Source of the DNA: Phycisphaerae bacterium
Lineage (GTDB): Bacteria > Planctomycetota > Phycisphaerae > Phycisphaerales > SM1A02
Reading direction: 5' to 3'
Assembly (NCBI GenBank): GCA_016873315.1
Contig: VGXL01000012.1
Span: 1-36,592, forward strand
DNA length: 36,592 nucleotides
Shown here: positions 9,669 through 17,864 of the stretch, piece by piece
How positions within the stretch are numbered: the first letter of the stretch is position 1
Layout of the letters: every line of letters begins with the position of its first letter
The notes under the pieces: generated by a model
Told to the model about the DNA's origin: nothing
What the model saw: only the letters and a program-made list of their open reading frames with translations
Database searches by the model: none
Made by a program: the position numbers and the translations under genes

Positions 9669-9874
9669 AAGCGTGATTATTGGCTACACAGGGTCCCGAT
9701 CATCGGGCCACTCTACCTCGCAAGCCGTGCTCTGGCCTGACCTTCGGTGACAAAAGTTCCCCCGAATCGAGCAACTCCCGCCTCGTCGATCGTCGCGGCT
9801 GTGGCATCTTCTCCACGCTTCTTCCGGCGGTCGGTCAGGCGCGCGCAGAAAGGACGAGTGTGGGCAGGACGAAG

Positions 9875-11926
9875 ATGTTCAAGACTGCTGGCATCGCGAT
9901 CGTCGCGTGGGCGATGGTGAGCGCGCCGGCACTCGCGCAGTCGGTTGCACGACAGTGGAACGAGGAGCAGTTGGCGGCGATCCGTCGCGACCTCGCTCGT
10001 CCGACCGTGCATGCGCGCAATCTCTATCACGCCAGCGCGGCGATGTGGGATGCCTGGGCAGCGTTCGATCCTGCCGCGACGGCGGTGATCGCTGTGAGTG
10101 TTCCTGACATGTCCGCCAGCGATGTCGGAGCCGCGCGCAACATGGCGATCTCGTACGCGGCCTATCGCGTCCTCAGCAATCGATTTTCCACCGGTCCCGG
10201 CGCTGCTGCGAGTCTTGCCGCCTTCACGGCGCGCATGAACGCGCTGGGCTACGACCCGGCCTACACGAGCACCACCGGCGGTACGCCGGCGGATGTGGGC
10301 AACGCGATCGCTGCTGCAGTGATCGCTCACGGATTGAGTGATGGATCGAATCAGCAGAACGGGTACATCAACCAACAGTATGAGTCGATCAACGATCCGC
10401 TGATCGTGAAGTTGCCAGGGAATCCGTGGGCCATTGAGCCGAGCCGATACCAGCCGCTTGCGCTCGAGTTCTTCGTCGACCAGAACGGCAATCCGATTCC
10501 CGGCGGATTCCCGCCGTTCATGTCACCTGAGTGGGGCTTCGTGACGCCCTTTGCCCTGACATCAGCTGATCGCGCGGTCAAGCAGCGGGGCGGTCACAAC
10601 TGGAATGTCTATCTGGATCCGGGGCCAGTGCCCGCGCTCGACAACGCGATGATCGCCACATTCCAGCAGAGCCATGCCGTGACGCTCACGCTCAGCGGTC
10701 AGCTCGATCCAGCGGATGGCGTGATGATCGACATTTCGCCCGGCGCGATGACGGCGAAGGCGCTCCCGGTCGACCCCGCCAACGACTTCTCCACGCTGTA
10801 TGACGGCTACCTCGGCCCCAAGTGGGGTCCTGGGCTCACGCTGAATCCTGTCACCGGTTCTGCCTACGCTCCCAATGTGGTGAAGCGCGGCGACTTCTCG
10901 CGCGTGCTCGCCGAGTTCTGGGCCGACGGCCCCAGCAGCGAGACCCCGCCCGGTCACTGGTTCAAGATCAGCAACGAAGTCACAGACAACCTGGCCCACA
11001 AGCGTTGGCGCGGCGTGGGTCCTGACCTCGATGCGCTCGAGTGGGATGTGCGGCTCTATGTCACGCTCGGTGGCGCGCTGCACGACACCGCCATCTCGAT
11101 CTGGAGCGTGAAGGGCTACCACGATGCTGGGCGCCCGATCACCTCACTTCGGTACATGGCGATGAAGGGCCAGTCATCGAATCCGGCCGGTCCGTCGTAC
11201 CACCCACATGGCGTGCCGCTTGTGCCAGGCATGATCGAGGTGATCACGGCGCAAACGACGGCTCCAGGACAGCGACATGCCCATCTTTCCGGCCACGAAG
11301 GCGGCATCGCCGCGCTTGCCTGGCGCGGGCCCAATGCCATCTCGGACCCGGCCATCGATGTGGCTGGTTGTGGGTGGGTGCTTGCGCAGGAGTGGTGGCC
11401 ATACCAACGACCGTCCTTCGTGACGCCGCCCTTTGCCGGCTATGTGAGCGGTCACTCGGGCTACAGCCGTTGCGCCGCCGATGTGCTCGAGGCAATCACC
11501 GGATCGCCGTACTTCCCGGGCGGAATGGGCATCTTCAATGCCGTTCAAAATCAGTACCTTGTCTTTGAAGATGGCCCGTCGCAGTCGGTGCAGCTCCAGT
11601 GGGCGACCTTCCAGGATGCCGCGGCGCAGAGCGCCTTCAGCCGGGTGTGGGGCGGGATCCACCCGCCGATGGACGACTATCCGGCGCGCCGCATCGGTCG
11701 AGCCATTGCGCCCAAGGCGCTCGCGCGCGCGCAAGAACTCTTTGGTGCGCCGGCGTGCGTGGCCGACTTCAGTGGCAATGGATCGGTCGATGGCGCTGAC
11801 CTTGGCACCATGCTCAGTTCTTGGGGGCCGTGCGACGCATCGTGTGCCGCCGATCTCAATGGCGATGGCGTCGTCGGCGGCAGCGACCTTGGCTCACTGC
11901 TGTCGGCATGGGGTCCGTGCCAGTAG
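9875..11926 (+). CDS. Secreted vanadium-dependent haloperoxidase-like (PAP2 superfamily) protein with dockerin-like C-terminus
   Basis: Starting at the ATG at 9875, the protein has 683 residues and a signal peptide of about 21 residues ending in ALA. The three vanadate/phosphate-binding motifs of the PAP2/vanadium haloperoxidase superfamily are intact: K413-x6-R420-P421, V-S-G-H at 524-527, and S589-R590-x5-H596-x3-D600. The length and long helical N-terminal part resemble bacterial vanadium haloperoxidases more than small lipid phosphatases, but halide oxidation cannot be proven from sequence. The last 55 residues hold two dockerin/EF-hand-like repeats (DFSGNGSVDGADL and DLNGDGVVGGSDL), each followed by a Trp-Gly-Pro-Cys stretch. 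The frame is open back to 9680, but only the 9875 start (or GTG at 9860) puts the signal peptide at the N-terminus. The end overlaps pyrC convergently by 33 bases. Confidence 0.82.
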   Translation: MFKTAGIAIVAWAMVSAPALAQSVARQWNEEQLAAIRRDLARPTVHARNLYHASAAMWDAWAAFDPAATAVIAVSVPDMSASDVGAARNMAISYAAYRVLSNRFSTGPGAAASLAAFTARMNALGYDPAYTSTTGGTPADVGNAIAAAVIAHGLSDGSNQQNGYINQQYESINDPLIVKLPGNPWAIEPSRYQPLALEFFVDQNGNPIPGGFPPFMSPEWGFVTPFALTSADRAVKQRGGHNWNVYLDPGPVPALDNAMIATFQQSHAVTLTLSGQLDPADGVMIDISPGAMTAKALPVDPANDFSTLYDGYLGPKWGPGLTLNPVTGSAYAPNVVKRGDFSRVLAEFWADGPSSETPPGHWFKISNEVTDNLAHKRWRGVGPDLDALEWDVRLYVTLGGALHDTAISIWSVKGYHDAGRPITSLRYMAMKGQSSNPAGPSYHPHGVPLVPGMIEVITAQTTAPGQRHAHLSGHEGGIAALAWRGPNAISDPAIDVAGCGWVLAQEWWPYQRPSFVTPPFAGYVSGHSGYSRCAADVLEAITGSPYFPGGMGIFNAVQNQYLVFEDGPSQSVQLQWATFQDAAAQSAFSRVWGGIHPPMDDYPARRIGRAIAPKALARAQELFGAPACVADFSGNGSVDGADLGTMLSSWGPCDASCAADLNGDGVVGGSDLGSLLSAWGPCQ

Positions 11927-13204
11927 GAGTTCGCCGCGCACGAACACATGCGACGCGCGACCCGTGACCGGCCACCCGTCGAATGGGCAGTTGCGGCTCA
12001 GGCTGACGAATGACTCCGCATCGATCGTCCACGACATCGTGGGGTCGATCACCGTGATGTCGGCGGGACCGTGCACGGTCAAGGTGCCTAGGCCGCTGCC
12101 GTCGAGGCCGCACAGTCGCGCAGGTTCGATCGTCATCAGCGCGATGAGCCGCGGCCAGTCGATCGCGCCCGACTCCACGAGCGCCTTGGCGTAGAGCGGC
12201 AGTGCGCACTCCAAGCCGATGATGCCGAACGGCGCAGCGGTGAAGTCGCGAGCTTTCTCGGCGACGGCGTGCGGCGCGTGATCGGTGCCCAGGACGGTGA
12301 TGATGCCATCAGCCACAGCCTGTCGAAGCGCTTGAACATCGCTGGCGGAGCGCAGCGGTGGATTCATTTTGGCCTGCGTGTTGTAGCCCTCGCAGAGTTC
12401 GTCCGTGAGCAGCAGATGGTGCGGACTCACTTCGCCGGTCACGCGCTGTCCGCCATCGCGAGCGCGCTTGATGATCTCCACGCTGCCGCCGCTCGACAGG
12501 TGTTGGGCGTGATACATCGCACCGACGCGCGCGTTGAGCCGCACATCGCGCTCGATGACGACTTCTTCTGCAACCGCTGGCCAGCCCCCAAGCCCAAGTC
12601 GCGCGGCAACGGCGCCAGCATTCATGACGCCGCCTGTCGTGAGCGACGCATCCTGGCAGTGCTGCATGAACGCCTTGCCGAGCGCAGCGCAGGTGAGCAG
12701 CACCTTGTGCATCATCGCGGCGCTCTCGATGCAATCGCCGTCGTCGCTGAAGGCGACCGCACCCGCCTTGGCCATCGCGCCCATCGGAGCGAGTTCTTCG
12801 CCCTTGCGCCCCACGGTTGCAGCGCCCACGCTGAACACGCGAGCCTTGCCCGCTTCCTGCGCCTTGAGCCGCACGAAGTCGACCAGGCTCGGAAGATCCA
12901 GCGCCGGCGATGTGTTGGGCATGCAACAGACGGTGGTGAAGCCGCCCTCGATGGCGGACGATGCGCCGCTCAGGATTGTTTCCTTGTGCTCCTGTCCGGG
13001 CTCGCGCAAGTGCACATGCGGATCGATCAGTCCCGGCGCGACGATGCACCCTTCGCAATCGATCACGGTCGCACCAGCCGGCGGCGCGATGCGGCTTGTC
13101 GATCGTTCGCGAATCGCTGTGCCATCGATGAGCAGGTCGCCGGTCGCATCCAGTCCCGAGGCCGGGTCGATGATCCGTCCACCACGCAGCAGGTAGGTCG
13201 CCAT
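11894..13204 (-). CDS. pyrC: Dihydroorotase, class I
   Basis: The 436-residue product should cyclise carbamoyl aspartate to dihydroorotate in pyrimidine biosynthesis. The amidohydrolase metal site appears as DPHVHLREPG at 61-70 (H63, H65). Also visible are CCMPNTSPALD, the middle-domain VSPHHLLLTDE, KMNPPLRS and GTDHAPH near the C-terminal side, in the order expected for class I enzymes. I chose the ATG at 13204 because it starts the usual small beta domain (MATYLLRGGRIIDP). The frame stays open to 13255, but that stretch is unlike the family and runs into a likely terminator. It follows the cysteine-rich lipoprotein gene on the same strand but is separated from it by that terminator. Confidence 0.93.
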   Translation of the reverse strand: MATYLLRGGRIIDPASGLDATGDLLIDGTAIRERSTSRIAPPAGATVIDCEGCIVAPGLIDPHVHLREPGQEHKETILSGASSAIEGGFTTVCCMPNTSPALDLPSLVDFVRLKAQEAGKARVFSVGAATVGRKGEELAPMGAMAKAGAVAFSDDGDCIESAAMMHKVLLTCAALGKAFMQHCQDASLTTGGVMNAGAVAARLGLGGWPAVAEEVVIERDVRLNARVGAMYHAQHLSSGGSVEIIKRARDGGQRVTGEVSPHHLLLTDELCEGYNTQAKMNPPLRSASDVQALRQAVADGIITVLGTDHAPHAVAEKARDFTAAPFGIIGLECALPLYAKALVESGAIDWPRLIALMTIEPARLCGLDGSGLGTLTVHGPADITVIDPTMSWTIDAESFVSLSRNCPFDGWPVTGRASHVFVRGELLLARTPCRQQ

Positions 13205-13245
13205 GGGCGGGAATGGTACGGACGCACGCGTTGCGAACGACGGGC

Positions 13246-13280
13246 GCAAAAACACATCGACCCCGCACGAGGCGGGGCCG
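13246..13280 (-). terminator. Rho-independent terminator downstream of the cysteine-rich lipoprotein gene
   Basis: CCCCGC at 13261-13266 pairs with GCGGGG at 13272-13277 around a 5-base loop, extended by two more pairs beyond a mismatch. On the minus strand the stem is followed within a few bases by a run of five Ts (13248-13252). It sits between the stop of the lipoprotein gene (13322) and the pyrC start (13204), so it should end the lipoprotein transcript and keep pyrC separate. Confidence 0.7.
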
Positions 13281-13321
13281 ATGGTTCAGTCAATCACTCG
13301 GGAGCGGACTCCCGGCAGGGT

Positions 13322-13675
13322 TCAGCCCTGGGTCGCGGGGCAAGCCTTCTTGCAGCAACCTTCGGCCTTCTTCTCGCCGACGGCGCCGGGAGCGACATTG
13401 CCGGTCGCGGGGCAGGCAGCCTTGTCGGCGCCCTTGGTGCATTCAGCCTTCTCGCCAGCGACGGCGCCGGGGGCCGCAGCCGCGTTCTTGCAGCATGCCT
13501 TGCCCTTCGAGCAGCCTTCGCCCTGGGCGCCGACGGCGTCCTTGCAGCACGCCTTGGCATCCTTCGAGCAGCATTCGCTCTTGGCGCCGACGGTGCCGGG
13601 GGCAGCGGTCTTGGTGGTTTCGCAGGCAGCGAAGAGGCCGACGAGGGCGAGGGCAGCGATCGAGAACTTGGTCAT
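13322..13675 (-). CDS. Small cysteine-rich lipoprotein, possible metal binder
   Basis: The 117-residue product has a lipoprotein signal peptide ending in LFAAC (Cys18). The mature part is made of Lys/Ala/Gly-rich linkers around 12 cysteines, four of them as Cys-Cys pairs (for example ECCSKD, ACCKDA, ACCKNA, GCCKKACP). I do not recognise a named family. The paired cysteines suggest metal binding or a disulphide-rich surface protein, which is inference only. The ATG at 13675 follows AGGAA with good spacing, which fixes this start over longer in-frame options. The gene stands alone, with its own terminator and a leader containing a strong dyad, so it is probably regulated separately from both neighbours. 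Confidence 0.75.
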   Translation of the reverse strand: MTKFSIAALALVGLFAACETTKTAAPGTVGAKSECCSKDAKACCKDAVGAQGEGCSKGKACCKNAAAAPGAVAGEKAECTKGADKAACPATGNVAPGAVGEKKAEGCCKKACPATQG

Positions 13676-13720
13676 GGTCAATTCCTGTGATTGGGGAAAC
13701 GGATCGGGGTCGAAGCGGAG

Positions 13721-13758
13721 ATTCGTGAAGGGGGCAACGTGCCCCCAGTGAGACGAAT
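13721..13758 (-). promoter_or_regulatory. Nested inverted repeat in the leader of the cysteine-rich lipoprotein gene
   Basis: A perfect 7-bp dyad GGGGGCA/TGCCCCC (13730-13736 and 13740-13746, 3-base loop) is flanked by a second dyad, ATTCGT at 13721-13726 and ACGAAT at 13753-13758. It lies 46-83 bases upstream of the lipoprotein ATG. A weak -10-like TAGAGT lies just beyond it on the minus strand near 13760. The element could be an mRNA hairpin in the leader or a binding site for a repressor. It is in the gap between this gene and the divergent uvrC. Confidence 0.5.
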
Positions 13759-13803
13759 ACTCTAGCGGGGTTGTTGCCCTCACGGCAGCGAAGTGGGACA
13801 AGA

Positions 13804-15243
13804 ATGACTGCTCCGGAACCCACATTCTTGCCCGGGGACGGCCTTCCGGCTCCGCCGGGGCCTGGCTCGGCGGGCTTCATGGGGTTGCCCCGGTCCCAGC
13901 GGCTGGCGGCGCTCCTGGCGAAGGCCCGGACGCTGCCCAAGGTGGCTGGCGTCTACCTGATGAAGGATGCCGAGGGCCGCGTGATCTATGTGGGCAAGGC
14001 AGGCATCCTGCCCAATCGCGTCGCGAGCTACTTCGTGCCCAGCGCAGATCTGGGGCCGCGCAAGCACCCCATGCTGGACCTGATCCACGACCTCGACACG
14101 ATTCCCTGCGAGGGAGAGTGGGAGGCGCTCCTGATGGAGAGCCGTCTCATTAAGGATCTGCATCCACACTTTAACGATCAGATGACGGACGGCAAGTCGT
14201 TTCCGTACCTCGTCGTGACCACGCGCGATGATTTCCCGGGTGTTTTCATCACGCGCGAACCGGCTGCACCCAGGTTTCGCGGTGCGCGCGTGTTGGGCCC
14301 GTTCACGAGCGGCGGTTCGCTGCGCCATGCCGTCCAGGTGCTGCAGCGGGTCTTCAAGTACCGCACCTGCGAGCTCACGATCGAGGCCTCGAATCCGGCC
14401 AACGCCTCGTTCAGGCCGTGCCTGTTGCATGACATCCATCAGTGCACGGCGCCGTGCGCCAATCGGATTTCGCCAGCGGCCTACCGCGCGGACATCGACC
14501 GATTCCTGCGCTTTCTCTCGAGCAAACGCAGCGCCATGCTGCGTGACCTGCGCGCCGAAATGGAGCAAGCGAGCGCAGCGCTTGACTTCGAGCGGGCCGC
14601 GGTCCTGCGGGATCAACTGCGCGCGATCGAGCGGCTCGATGATCGCGAAACCCGCGGCGACGAGGGGGAGTACGACTGGCAGCCCGAGGTGACGATGTTC
14701 AGCGGGGATCCGCTGGCGATGTCGCGAAGTCTGGCGCGAACGCTCGGCATCGAGTCGATCCGCTGCATCGAGGGCTTCGACATCGCGCATCTCGCTGGCG
14801 AGGAGACCGTCGGCAGCAAGGTCTGCTTCATCGACGGTCGTCCCTTCAAAGATGGCTACCGCCGGTTCCGTGTGCGCAGCGTCGAGAACAACGACTACCG
14901 CGCGCTGCAGGAGGTCGTGAGCCGCCGATACCGAGAGGCGGGCAAGGGACACGAGCTCTATCCCGATGTGGTGCTCATCGACGGCGGGCTCGGGCAACTC
15001 AACGCCGCGCTCGAGGCGTTCGCGCAACTCGATTGCAAGCCGCCGATGGTGATCAGCCTTGCCAAGCGCGAGGAGTTGATCCATGTTCCCGGCCGCACCG
15101 AGCCCATCCGGCTCGGCCGCGAGAACGCTGGGCTCAAGCTCTGCCAGGCGATCCGCGACGAAGCGCACCGCTACGCACAGCACTACCACCACGCGTTGCG
15201 GACCAAGCGCCTGCTCCCGCAGCGCAAGCCGAACGAGGGTTAG
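13804..15243 (+). CDS. uvrC: UvrC-type excinuclease subunit lacking the C-terminal helix-hairpin-helix domain
   Basis: The 479-residue product should make the dual incisions in nucleotide excision repair with UvrA and UvrB. It has a GIY-YIG nuclease domain at about 46-130 (GVYLMKD, IYVGKA at 61-66, R72). A UVR helical hairpin that contacts UvrB follows at about 249-280 (ALDFERAAVLRDQL). The RNase H-like nuclease domain is at about 310-470, with GFDIAHL, NNDYRALQEV, DVVLIDGGLGQLNAAL and AHRYAQHYHH. It stops at LLPQRKPNEG, just where typical UvrCs (about 600 residues) continue into the two helix-hairpin-helix motifs. The stop is a plain TAG, and the convergent ftsH gene ends 9 bases later, so no room remains for the missing domain. 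An upstream TTG at 13771 would add 11 residues. Confidence 0.88.
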   Translation: MTAPEPTFLPGDGLPAPPGPGSAGFMGLPRSQRLAALLAKARTLPKVAGVYLMKDAEGRVIYVGKAGILPNRVASYFVPSADLGPRKHPMLDLIHDLDTIPCEGEWEALLMESRLIKDLHPHFNDQMTDGKSFPYLVVTTRDDFPGVFITREPAAPRFRGARVLGPFTSGGSLRHAVQVLQRVFKYRTCELTIEASNPANASFRPCLLHDIHQCTAPCANRISPAAYRADIDRFLRFLSSKRSAMLRDLRAEMEQASAALDFERAAVLRDQLRAIERLDDRETRGDEGEYDWQPEVTMFSGDPLAMSRSLARTLGIESIRCIEGFDIAHLAGEETVGSKVCFIDGRPFKDGYRRFRVRSVENNDYRALQEVVSRRYREAGKGHELYPDVVLIDGGLGQLNAALEAFAQLDCKPPMVISLAKREELIHVPGRTEPIRLGRENAGLKLCQAIRDEAHRYAQHYHHALRTKRLLPQRKPNEG

Positions 15244-15252
15244 CGCCGCGCA

Positions 15253-17349
15253 TCACGCCGGCGAGGGCAGGGCGTCGGCAGGCGGCTCTTCGCCCGGATC
15301 GGTCGTCGGCGCGGGCGCCGGCTTGGGCGCAGCGAACTCGCGCTGCAGCAGATCGCTCACCGTGCTCTTTTCGAGCTTCTCGCCGCGCATGAGTCGTTCG
15401 ACCTCGTCGCGCGACAGCGTCTCGTACTTCAGGAGCGCCTGCGCCACGGCATCGATCGCGGTCCAGTGCTGCTCGACCATGCGTCGAGCTTCGTCGTACG
15501 CCTCGTCGCTCAGTCGGCGGATCTCTTCGTCGATGATGCGCGCCGTCTCGGGCGAGTACTCCTTTTCAGGGATGTACATCTCGCGGCTGTCTTCACCCGC
15601 GTAGTTCACGAAGCCCAGTCGATCGCTCATGCCCCACTTGAGCACCATCGCGCGCGCGTAGGAGGTGACCATCTGGATGTCCATTCCCGCGCCCGACGAG
15701 ATGTCGCCCGTGTGGCGGCCCTCGGCCAGTCGACCGGCGCACAGCACACGCATGGTCGCCTCCATGAAACGGCGGCTGTAGCCGTAGCGGTCCTTCTCGG
15801 GAAGGCTGAATGTGACGCCCATCGCCTGGCCACGCGGAATGATCGTGACCTTGTGCAGCGGGTCGGCGTCCTTGAGCAGCATTTGCAACACGGCGTGACC
15901 GGCTTCGTGGTACGCGGTGGCCTCGCGCTCCTGCTGCTCGATGCGTCGGCTCTTGTTCGCGCGACCCCAGCGCACCTTGTCGCGGGCTTCCTCGAGATCG
16001 GTCTGTTCGATGAAGTCCTTCTCGGCCATCGTGGCGATGATCGCGCTCTCGTTGATGAGCGCAGCCAAATCGGCGCCACTGAACATGGGCGTGGCCTTGG
16101 CGATGCGCGCCAAGTCGACATCGGGACCCATCTTCACCTTCTTGGCGTGCACCGCGAGAATCTCGGCGCGCCCCTTCACATCGGGCAGCGGCACCTGGAT
16201 CGACCGGTCGAATCGTCCCGGGCGCGTCAGCGCAGGGTCGAGCACATCAAGCCGGTTGGTGCCTGCAATCACGATCACTTGATCGGCGGCCTCGAAGCCG
16301 TCCATCTCGACCAGGATCGCGTTCAGGGTCTGCTCACGCTCATCGTGACCGCCGCTGTTGAAGCCACCGCCACGACGGCGACCGACTGCATCGATCTCAT
16401 CCAGGAAAATGATGCACGGCGCGTTTTCCTTCGCCTGCTTGAAGAGATCGCGCACGCGGCTCGCGCCGACGCCCACGAACATCTCGACGAAGTCTGATCC
16501 GGAGATCGAGAAGAAGGGGGCATCGGCCTCGCCAGCGATTGCCTTGGCGAGCATCGTCTTGCCGCAACCCGGAGGTCCCGACAACAGCACGCCGCGCGGA
16601 ATGCGACCGCCTAGGCGCGCGAACTTCTTGGGGTTCCGCAGGAACTCAACGATCTCGCTGACTTCTTCCTTCGCCTCTTCGATGCCGGCGACATCCTTGA
16701 AGGTGATGCCGGTCGAGTCCTTGGTCTGCAAGCGGTGTCGGCTCTTTCCGAAGTTCCCAAGCATGCCGCCGGGTCCGCCGCCGGCCGAGCGCAGCCCGCG
16801 CATGAAGAACCAGAAGATGAAGATCAGCACGCCCAGCGAGAGCAAGCTCGGCAGAAGCGCCATGAACCACGATTGGCCGGTGTTCTCCTCGCTCCAGCCC
16901 ACGCCGGCTGCGGTCAATTGATTGCGAATCCAGCCGTAATCGTCTGGCAGGATCGTTGAGTAAATGCGCGTTGGCTGCTGCGTCGCGGAACCGGTCGGCT
17001 TGCCGTCGGTCCCAGGCACCGGGGCCGTCCAAGCCGTGGCGTTCTCCTTGACTTCGGCGACGACGCGGCCGGTCTCGATGACGATTGAACCGTCCTTGAG
17101 CTTGCCTTGCTTGGCGTACTCAATGAGGGTCGGCAGCGGCTGCTCCTGACCGTCGGGTCCACCAGAGAAGAGCACCATGCCCACGAGCACCATCAGGCCA
17201 AGCAGCATGACGAGCGTCAGGCCAGGTCGACGCGGCGGCGCGCCGCCAGGGCCGCCCTGACCACCCGGGCCCTTGTTGCCGGGGGTCGGTCCCTTGCCCT
17301 GACCGGGCTGGTTCTGCTGCGCGTGGATGGGCGGGAGAAGTTCGCTCAT
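15253..17349 (-). CDS. ftsH: ATP-dependent zinc metalloprotease FtsH
   Basis: This 698-residue membrane AAA+ protease degrades membrane and regulatory proteins. After a Gly/Pro/Gln-rich N-terminal stretch come two membrane segments (about 46-64 and 162-184) flanking a periplasmic domain. The AAA+ domain has Walker A GPPGCGKT (258-265), the pore loop MFVGVG, Walker B IIFLDEID (313-320) and the second-region-of-homology arginines. The protease domain has the zinc site HEAGH (481-485). The ATG at 17349 lies 5 bases after the LptE-like stop. A GTG at 17358 that overlaps that stop as GTGA is an equally plausible start, adding three residues. It is the last gene of a three-gene minus-strand operon. 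Confidence 0.95.
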
Positions 17350-17354
17350 GGGGT

Positions 17355-17864
17355 TCACCAATCGGCCTGCATACTGTCAACGATCGCCGTGGCCAGTTGT
17401 TCGACGACCTGGAAGCGTGCCAGATCAATCGGCTGTTGGATGGGGAGGCTCGCAACGAAGACGGCGGATTCGCGGAAACCGTTGCGCTGCACGAGCGGCT
17501 TGCCCGTGCGCTGGTCGATCCACTCGTAGTCCACGGTCACATTGAGGGCCATTTCCTCAGTGAGAGCGGTTCCCCGGCTCTTGCTGAGCTGCTGCAGATC
17601 GATCGTGCGGATCGTGGCGTGAAGCACGGTGTCGGATCGGCCTTCGCTCGCCACTCGAAAGTGCGTTCCAGACTCGATGACCTTCACGAGCGCGTCGGTC
17701 AGTTCCGGCGCGATCTTGCGATCAAAGGTGGCGTTCTTGACGACCGGAACCGCGACCGTGCGGATGCCCTTGTCGTAACGCTGGCCCGACTCGTACTTGG
17801 GGGCGCCGTCGCATGCAGCGAAGAGTCCAGCGAGGGTCGCGACGACAGCGAGACGAAGCATCAT
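17355..17864 (-). CDS. lptE: LptE-like LPS-assembly lipoprotein
   Basis: The 169-residue product has a lipoprotein signal peptide ending in LFAAC (Cys18). A compact alpha/beta domain follows, with a pattern typical of LptE-like proteins: a TVAVPVVKNATFDRK strand and turn, a helix ending ALVKVIES, then HATIRTI and the alternating strand ALNVTVDYEW. In Gram-negative bacteria LptE plugs the LptD barrel that inserts lipopolysaccharide into the outer membrane. The start overlaps the stop of the upstream TPR gene as ATGA, and ftsH follows within a few bases. Sequence conservation in this family is low, so the call rests on pattern, length and lipobox. Confidence 0.72.
   Translation of the reverse strand: MMLRLAVVATLAGLFAACDGAPKYESGQRYDKGIRTVAVPVVKNATFDRKIAPELTDALVKVIESGTHFRVASEGRSDTVLHATIRTIDLQQLSKSRGTALTEEMALNVTVDYEWIDQRTGKPLVQRNGFRESAVFVASLPIQQPIDLARFQVVEQLATAIVDSMQADW

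Follow-up and report, generated by a model that had tools for sequence, protein, structure and literature searches.

We analysed a window of 36,592 nucleotides from a Phycisphaerae bacterium, in which a small minus-strand gene encodes a cysteine-rich lipoprotein of 117 amino acids including its signal peptide (Table 1). The reading frame runs from a start codon at 13675-13673 to a stop codon at 13324-13322. The signal peptide is accompanied by a lipobox, FAAC, whose cysteine (C18) is predicted to be lipidated, and 12 more cysteines lie beyond it. A sequence-only reading of this DNA had described a cysteine-rich lipoprotein gene with its own terminator and a dyad in the leader, and all of these elements were recovered, the dyad as an inner repeat of 7 bp.

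Table 1. Features of the lipoprotein locus and its neighbours, in window coordinates.
Feature	Position	Strand	Basis
pyrC-like dihydroorotase, downstream neighbour	11894..13204	-	Pfam amidohydrolase/DHOase; neighbour in related loci
Intrinsic terminator (12-nt arms, loop, T run)	13248..13283	-	Folding against shuffles; stem nearly invariant in 9 genus genomes
CDS, Cys-rich repeat lipoprotein	13322..13675	-	ORF; matches in 9/9 genus genomes; nonsynonymous below synonymous differences
Lipobox F-A-A-C (Cys18 predicted lipidated)	13622..13633	-	Sequence; FAAC in 9/9 genus sequences
Shine-Dalgarno-like AGGA	13683..13686	-	Leader alignment; AGGAG in 8 orthologs
Outer dyad, distal arm (ACGAAT on minus strand)	13721..13726	-	Sequence
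Inner dyad / 5' hairpin GGGGGCA-CGT-TGCCCCC	13730..13746	-	Repeat search, folding, genus leaders, paired changes
Outer dyad, proximal arm (ATTCGT on minus strand), directly after -10-like hexamer	13753..13758	-	Sequence
-10-like hexamer TAGAGT within block GCTAGA(G/C)TAT	13759..13764	-	Block in 9/9 genus leaders, with a single substitution in L008
uvrC, divergent neighbour	13804..15243	+	Pfam UvrC_RNaseH_dom, UVR
ftsH, convergent with uvrC	15253..17349	-	Pfam Peptidase_M41 + AAA; also in related loci

The terminator hairpin is strong: its arms (13255-13266/13272-13283), together with the T run, fold at -24.1 kcal/mol (z -4.69), a value equalled by none of 200 shuffles, and by a strict rule gene-linked terminators are present at 18 of 33 loci of the taxonomic family. 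Because this terminator separates the lipoprotein gene from its co-directional neighbour pyrC, and uvrC is divergent, the lipoprotein gene is predicted to be monocistronic. An Rfam scan of positions 13200-13900 returned no model at its gathering score, the isrK model reaching 19.5 bits over the terminator against a cut-off of 50; a known RNA family for the leader or the terminator was ruled out at that threshold.

The protein is built from repeats. Within the genus, each protein contains three to four units starting PG(A/T)V and spaced 25–28 residues apart, one unit spacing in the window's own protein being 43 residues, and the number of units differs between species. Over codons 1–37 the genus sequences differ by a mean of 0.94 nonsynonymous versus 3.67 synonymous changes per pair (36 pairs). 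Across 39 proteins of the taxonomic family the composition is dominated by alanine (20%), serine (15%), lysine (12%), cysteine (11%) and glycine (11%); aromatic residues, histidine and arginine are nearly absent and methionine is also scarce. The 436 gaps between cysteines in these proteins are most often CC (94), CxxxC (77) or Cx5C (61). Metallothioneins have cysteine clusters rich in CxC and CxxC, spacings that occur here once and nine times, respectively, and no metallothionein profile was matched. The number of non-lipid cysteines is odd in 23 of the 39 proteins, a count affected by a lipobox call that falls one cysteine too early in at least three of them (L032, L048 and L056), and on these numbers a fixed pattern of intramolecular disulfides is not favoured. 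The window lipoprotein matched no Pfam and no NCBIfam family at E<=1 and nothing in the PDB, and five other family members gave nothing above a Pfam cut-off. An AlphaFold2 model computed from nine close sequences has a mean pLDDT of 34.1, which suggests that the protein is probably unstructured.

The gene is present in all nine available genomes of the genus, with pyrC adjoining it at every one of the nine loci; the isolate names of some of these relatives suggest ponds or lakes. An anchor search with uvrC across the 41 genomes of the taxonomic family gave matches in 38 and returned 30 loci, 24 of which carry a cysteine-rich protein divergent from uvrC. Twenty-two of these are clear lipoproteins, most with PGAV...Cys repeats; in three (L052, L057 and L058) the PGAV motif is nearly or wholly missing, so that the case for their homology depends on location and composition. 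The other two, at L042 and L046, are longer cysteine-repeat proteins ending in a similar LGxVS...CC motif; both stand in place of the small lipoprotein, the one at L042 having units such as QINASDCATKCSGAAKPVA. No such protein was recognised at the remaining six uvrC loci (L031, L035, L038, L045, L051 and L055). Synteny extends to the flanking genes, with pyrC at no fewer than 16 and ftsH at no fewer than 18 of the 30 loci, the stretches being short.

Beyond the taxonomic family the gene largely disappears. At the uvrC loci of 24 genomes (17 genera) from other families of the order the gene was found in none, and neither pyrC nor ftsH was matched; on visual inspection, none of the cysteine-containing reading frames listed at 12 of these loci was taken for a lipoprotein. 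A profile search of the order placed the gene in at least 41 of 301 genomes, of which 40 belong to the same family; G147 gave a weak match outside it. In the phylum, at least eight of 392 genomes were found, seven from the same family and one a weak outside match (G541, E 7.7e-6), with a profile that is insensitive: it did not pick up G026, although the gene is present at the uvrC locus of that genome (L056). Loci L012 and L011, from the weak outside matches G047 and G055, contain no lipoprotein by our filter. In G072 (genus g58), profile matches fall on two contigs, G072:C31 and G072:C47 (L155), which suggests a second copy of the gene away from the uvrC locus; no gene start passed the filter at L155. 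A scan of viral contigs found no relative, and a viral origin was rejected. The lipoprotein family is apparently confined to one family of its order as far as the searches extend. No paper describing it was found in the open-licence literature, and this repeat-built, cysteine-rich family at a conserved locus is apparently undescribed so far.

We next consider the leader. The inner dyad has 7-bp arms (13730-13736/13740-13746) enclosing a 3-nt loop and, as RNA, folds at -14 kcal/mol (z -3.27), with none of 200 shuffles equal to it. No T run follows the hairpin, which is best read on that account as a 5'-terminal mRNA stem-loop and makes an attenuator unlikely; a Shine-Dalgarno-masking element or thermosensor is likewise unlikely, the hairpin lying about 43 nt from the Shine-Dalgarno sequence. 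The dyad had been proposed to be nested, and both sets of arms are indeed in the sequence, with support from paired changes extending to the inner arms only. The outer proximal arm directly follows the likely -10 (TAGAGT) and is probably, for this reason, mostly upstream of the transcript start. Within the genus the outer helix is kept in a shorter CGT/ACG form without double changes; given this, and the abutment of its upstream arm on the -10-like hexamer, we do not count it as RNA structure.

In eight of the nine genus genomes a near-invariant block, GCTAGA(G/C)TAT, which we infer to be the promoter -10, is followed by a hairpin. The hairpin begins 10–12 nt past the -10-like TANNNT hexamer, and the predicted transcript start lies between the two. 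The exception is L002, where gene and block are kept and the hairpin is missing (p 0.94). Absence of the dyad from close relatives that keep the gene, the outcome that would have counted against the earlier observation, was found in part: the exact dyad of the window occurs in none of the eight other genomes, but seven of them carry a hairpin at the corresponding position. A possible ECF-sigma promoter motif, GGCAAC...CGTC, could be made out by eye in most leaders of the genus and is absent from L002 and L008. Compared with shuffles, the hairpin reached p <= 0.05 in four of eight genus leaders tested (L003, L008, L029 and L030); that of L005 has a mismatch in mid-stem.

Paired base changes, which had been suggested as a check on the dyad, were found for the inner stem at two positions. 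These came from an alignment of seven distinct hairpin-bearing rows, from which L004 (identical to L003 over the segment) and L002 (no hairpin) were excluded, a choice that favours structure. Two inner-stem pairs have changes on both sides, one appearing as A-T, G-C or T-A and the other as A-T, C-G, G-C or G-T. The covariation score of this alignment was matched by five of 500 shuffles, and 88.1% of stem cells are paired, against 31–53% for slid partners. The bare count of pairs changed on both sides is not significant, with 211 of 500 shuffles equalling it; in addition, three of the eight inner pairs are invariant, and two others are unpaired in three and four of the seven sequences, respectively. 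Structure is conserved over sequence in the genus, where with eight hairpins in nine genomes and two covarying pairs we regard the element as secure; beyond the genus it is recurrent and patchy.

Perfect symmetry at a promoter also invites a reading at the DNA level, in which a repressor sensing metals or redox state would bind the dyad as its operator, over the transcript start, and the protein would be a metallothionein-like metal sink. Tight control of this kind had been proposed from the sequence. A symmetric operator can show paired changes too, and a cysteine-rich protein nearly devoid of aromatics and histidine does resemble a metallothionein. Against this, GGGGGCANNNTGCCCCC occurs only at this locus in the 2.42-Mb genome and in none of the eight other genus genomes, and the stem drifts between species of a single genus, a pattern easier to reconcile with an RNA structure than with an operator bound by protein. 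A search for the promoter block with up to two mismatches found the locus in eight of nine genomes plus six other sites, versus seven for the reversed control, so that membership of the dyad in a regulon was rejected. A Pfam scan of five neighbouring proteins revealed no regulator, and the scarcity of CxC and CxxC spacings, with no Pfam match, argues against the metal sink as well. We consider this joint reading quite improbable, and the proposal of tight metal or redox control is not borne out.

Whether hairpins recur in the wider taxonomic family was assessed on 39 leaders, 14 of which contain a hairpin that beats its shuffles at p<0.05, compared with eight of 90 control leaders drawn from a single relative (G004) with crude gene calls. 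A layout defined by eye after the leaders had been inspected, TANNNT 4–12 nt before the best hairpin, is present in 14 of the 39 leaders and one of the 90 controls, and in seven of 23 genera when one leader was picked per genus with p values in view. Because of that choice we repeated the analysis on the full set of 52 leaders (26 genera), which includes 13 added at a later stage, and took medians per genus and representatives drawn at random. Shuffling of the upstream sequence predicts the layout in 1.9 genera, and it was present in eight of 26 (P 0.0006); with the window's genus removed, 1.8 are expected and seven of 25 have it (P 0.0012). The hairpins of these leaders are also the stronger, with a median of genus-median p values of 0.213 against 0.455 for the 90 controls (Mann-Whitney 0.0035). 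The 13 later leaders alone have the layout in one case, a median p of 0.30, and p<0.05 in one on the re-run, an earlier run having given two at about 0.05 or less. In genus g59 none of four leaders has a strong hairpin; in genus g7, two species (L044 and L143) carry, by eye, hairpins without mutual resemblance at roughly equal distances past the -10.

Several loci were set aside in these counts. L063 and L065 were dropped as duplicates of L044 and L049 before the hairpin, layout, Cys-gap and terminator counts, and L010 and L074 as the same genes as L039 and L048. L042 and L046 were left out of all leader counts, and L004 out of the family hairpin, Cys-gap and layout counts. Of 16 regions added later, three had no start by the filter (L144, L154 and L155) and 13 were kept.

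The patchiness gives some weight to the notion that GC-rich DNA alone accounts for the leader hairpin, which would then be incidental, and that the gene is an ordinary small lipoprotein gene. The hairpin is missing in L002 and weak or missing in many other leaders, and the 46-nt segment after the block folds at p<0.05 in only one of nine genus genomes, the window's own. Set against these observations are the paired changes at a fixed position within the genus, the z score of the window hairpin and the excess of genera with the layout over expectation, in view of which we think an incidental hairpin unlikely.

The coding sequence itself suggests that the lipoprotein is made in large amounts. 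Its codon adaptation index is 0.784, measured against the codons of EF-Tu and EF-G only, and all 23 long ORFs in the window score lower (next highest 0.573), one of the 23 being a probably spurious frame that overlaps the lipoprotein gene on the opposite strand. Synonymous versions of the same protein drawn from the codon usage of the window gave 0.488±0.055, with a maximum of 0.670 in 2000 draws. Codon adaptation of this strength implies high translation and, by extension, an abundant protein.

Taken together, the gene, lipobox, dyad, terminator, paired changes, synteny and codon bias, all of them read from sequence, point to an abundant, unstructured envelope lipoprotein whose monocistronic mRNA is shielded by a 5' stem-loop and whose cysteines are held as disulfides, a joint reading to which we give about an even chance. 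The transcript would start at the -10 promoter GCTAGAGTAT, a few nucleotides ahead of the inner stem-loop, and the terminator hairpin would close the other end of the message. The stem-loop would most likely guard the 5' end from attack by pyrophosphohydrolase and RNase, by analogy with stem-loops of the ompA type; a 5' hairpin impedes conversion of the 5' end by RppH, and 5' stem-loops can stabilise messages, according to two reviews (PMC3997798, PMC7509114). A message guarded in this way would be long-lived and allow the small protein to be highly made. Its product would be a probably unstructured lipoprotein anchored in the envelope, each tandem unit consisting of a PGAV motif and then a Cys cluster, and the cysteines would most likely be joined by disulfide bonds, both intramolecular and intermolecular, giving a structural or thiol-buffering coat.

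The resemblance to the ompA-type stabilisers of E. coli ompA and other messages extends to a hairpin apparently a few nucleotides from the 5' end, upstream and clear of the Shine-Dalgarno sequence, on a message with strong codon bias for an envelope protein; the difference is that here both the 5' end and the stability are sequence-based predictions. No report of such a 5' stem-loop leader in Planctomycetes was found in the open-licence literature.

Chlamydiae and Planctomycetes share the wider PVC lineage. Chlamydial OmcA is, like the window protein, a small cysteine-rich envelope lipoprotein, described as a 9-kDa outer-membrane protein (PMC2811131); the window protein differs in its tandem PGAV-Cys repeats and, with no profile hit in Pfam or NCBIfam at the threshold given above, did not match the OmcA family. 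A protein-based wall has been proposed for planctomycetes, and cysteine-rich YTV-domain proteins have been found in Rhodopirellula and Gemmataceae (PMC8567305). Those are cysteine-rich envelope proteins as well, whereas the present one is a small lipoprotein without a Pfam domain, known from one family of its order as far as tested. We regard OmcA and the planctomycete wall proteins as the nearest analogues in kind and claim membership in neither. An apparently abundant, repeat-built family of this sort offers a concrete envelope candidate in a different, uncultured lineage, and the genus leaders form a natural hairpin series in which pairing is kept as sequence changes. One could go further and picture the PGAV-Cys lipoproteins as a major disulfide-cross-linked scaffold or tether in the envelope of one Phycisphaerae-like family, an independent counterpart of OmcA in which repeat number is free and 5' hairpins have repeatedly re-evolved, an extension that we hold doubtful.

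The same hairpin could serve as a plain mRNA stabiliser for a different product, namely a constitutive lipoprotein that binds a metal such as copper. The many CxxxC and CC spacings would suit such a protein, CxxxC being the putative copper-binding motif of CutF (PMC9973294). The methionine and histidine that would aid copper binding are almost absent, however, and the scan of five neighbouring proteins found no copper gene, so that we rate metal binding as unlikely too. CutF (DUF2946) is itself similar: it too is small and exported, contains CxxxC and has an mRNA hairpin at its locus, but that hairpin lies downstream, where it masks the cutO Shine-Dalgarno sequence (PMC9973294), and here the hairpin is upstream. 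The window protein matches no Pfam family, DUF2946 included, and a terminator follows its gene.

Some further features of the surroundings were observed. The -10-like block GCTAGAGTAT, at window positions 13757-13766, reads ATACTCTAGC on the opposite strand, facing uvrC, and could thus be a bidirectional promoter element. On the far side of the lipoprotein gene, an open reading frame of 733 aa, in which Pfam finds a DUF6851 domain, occupies 9725-11926 on the plus strand and has two dockerin-like repeats at its end (DLNGDGVVGGSDLG...). Just upstream of ftsH, at 17355-17864 on the minus strand, lies a gene for an LptE-domain protein (Pfam), which places an outer-membrane assembly gene in the neighbourhood of the lipoprotein as well.
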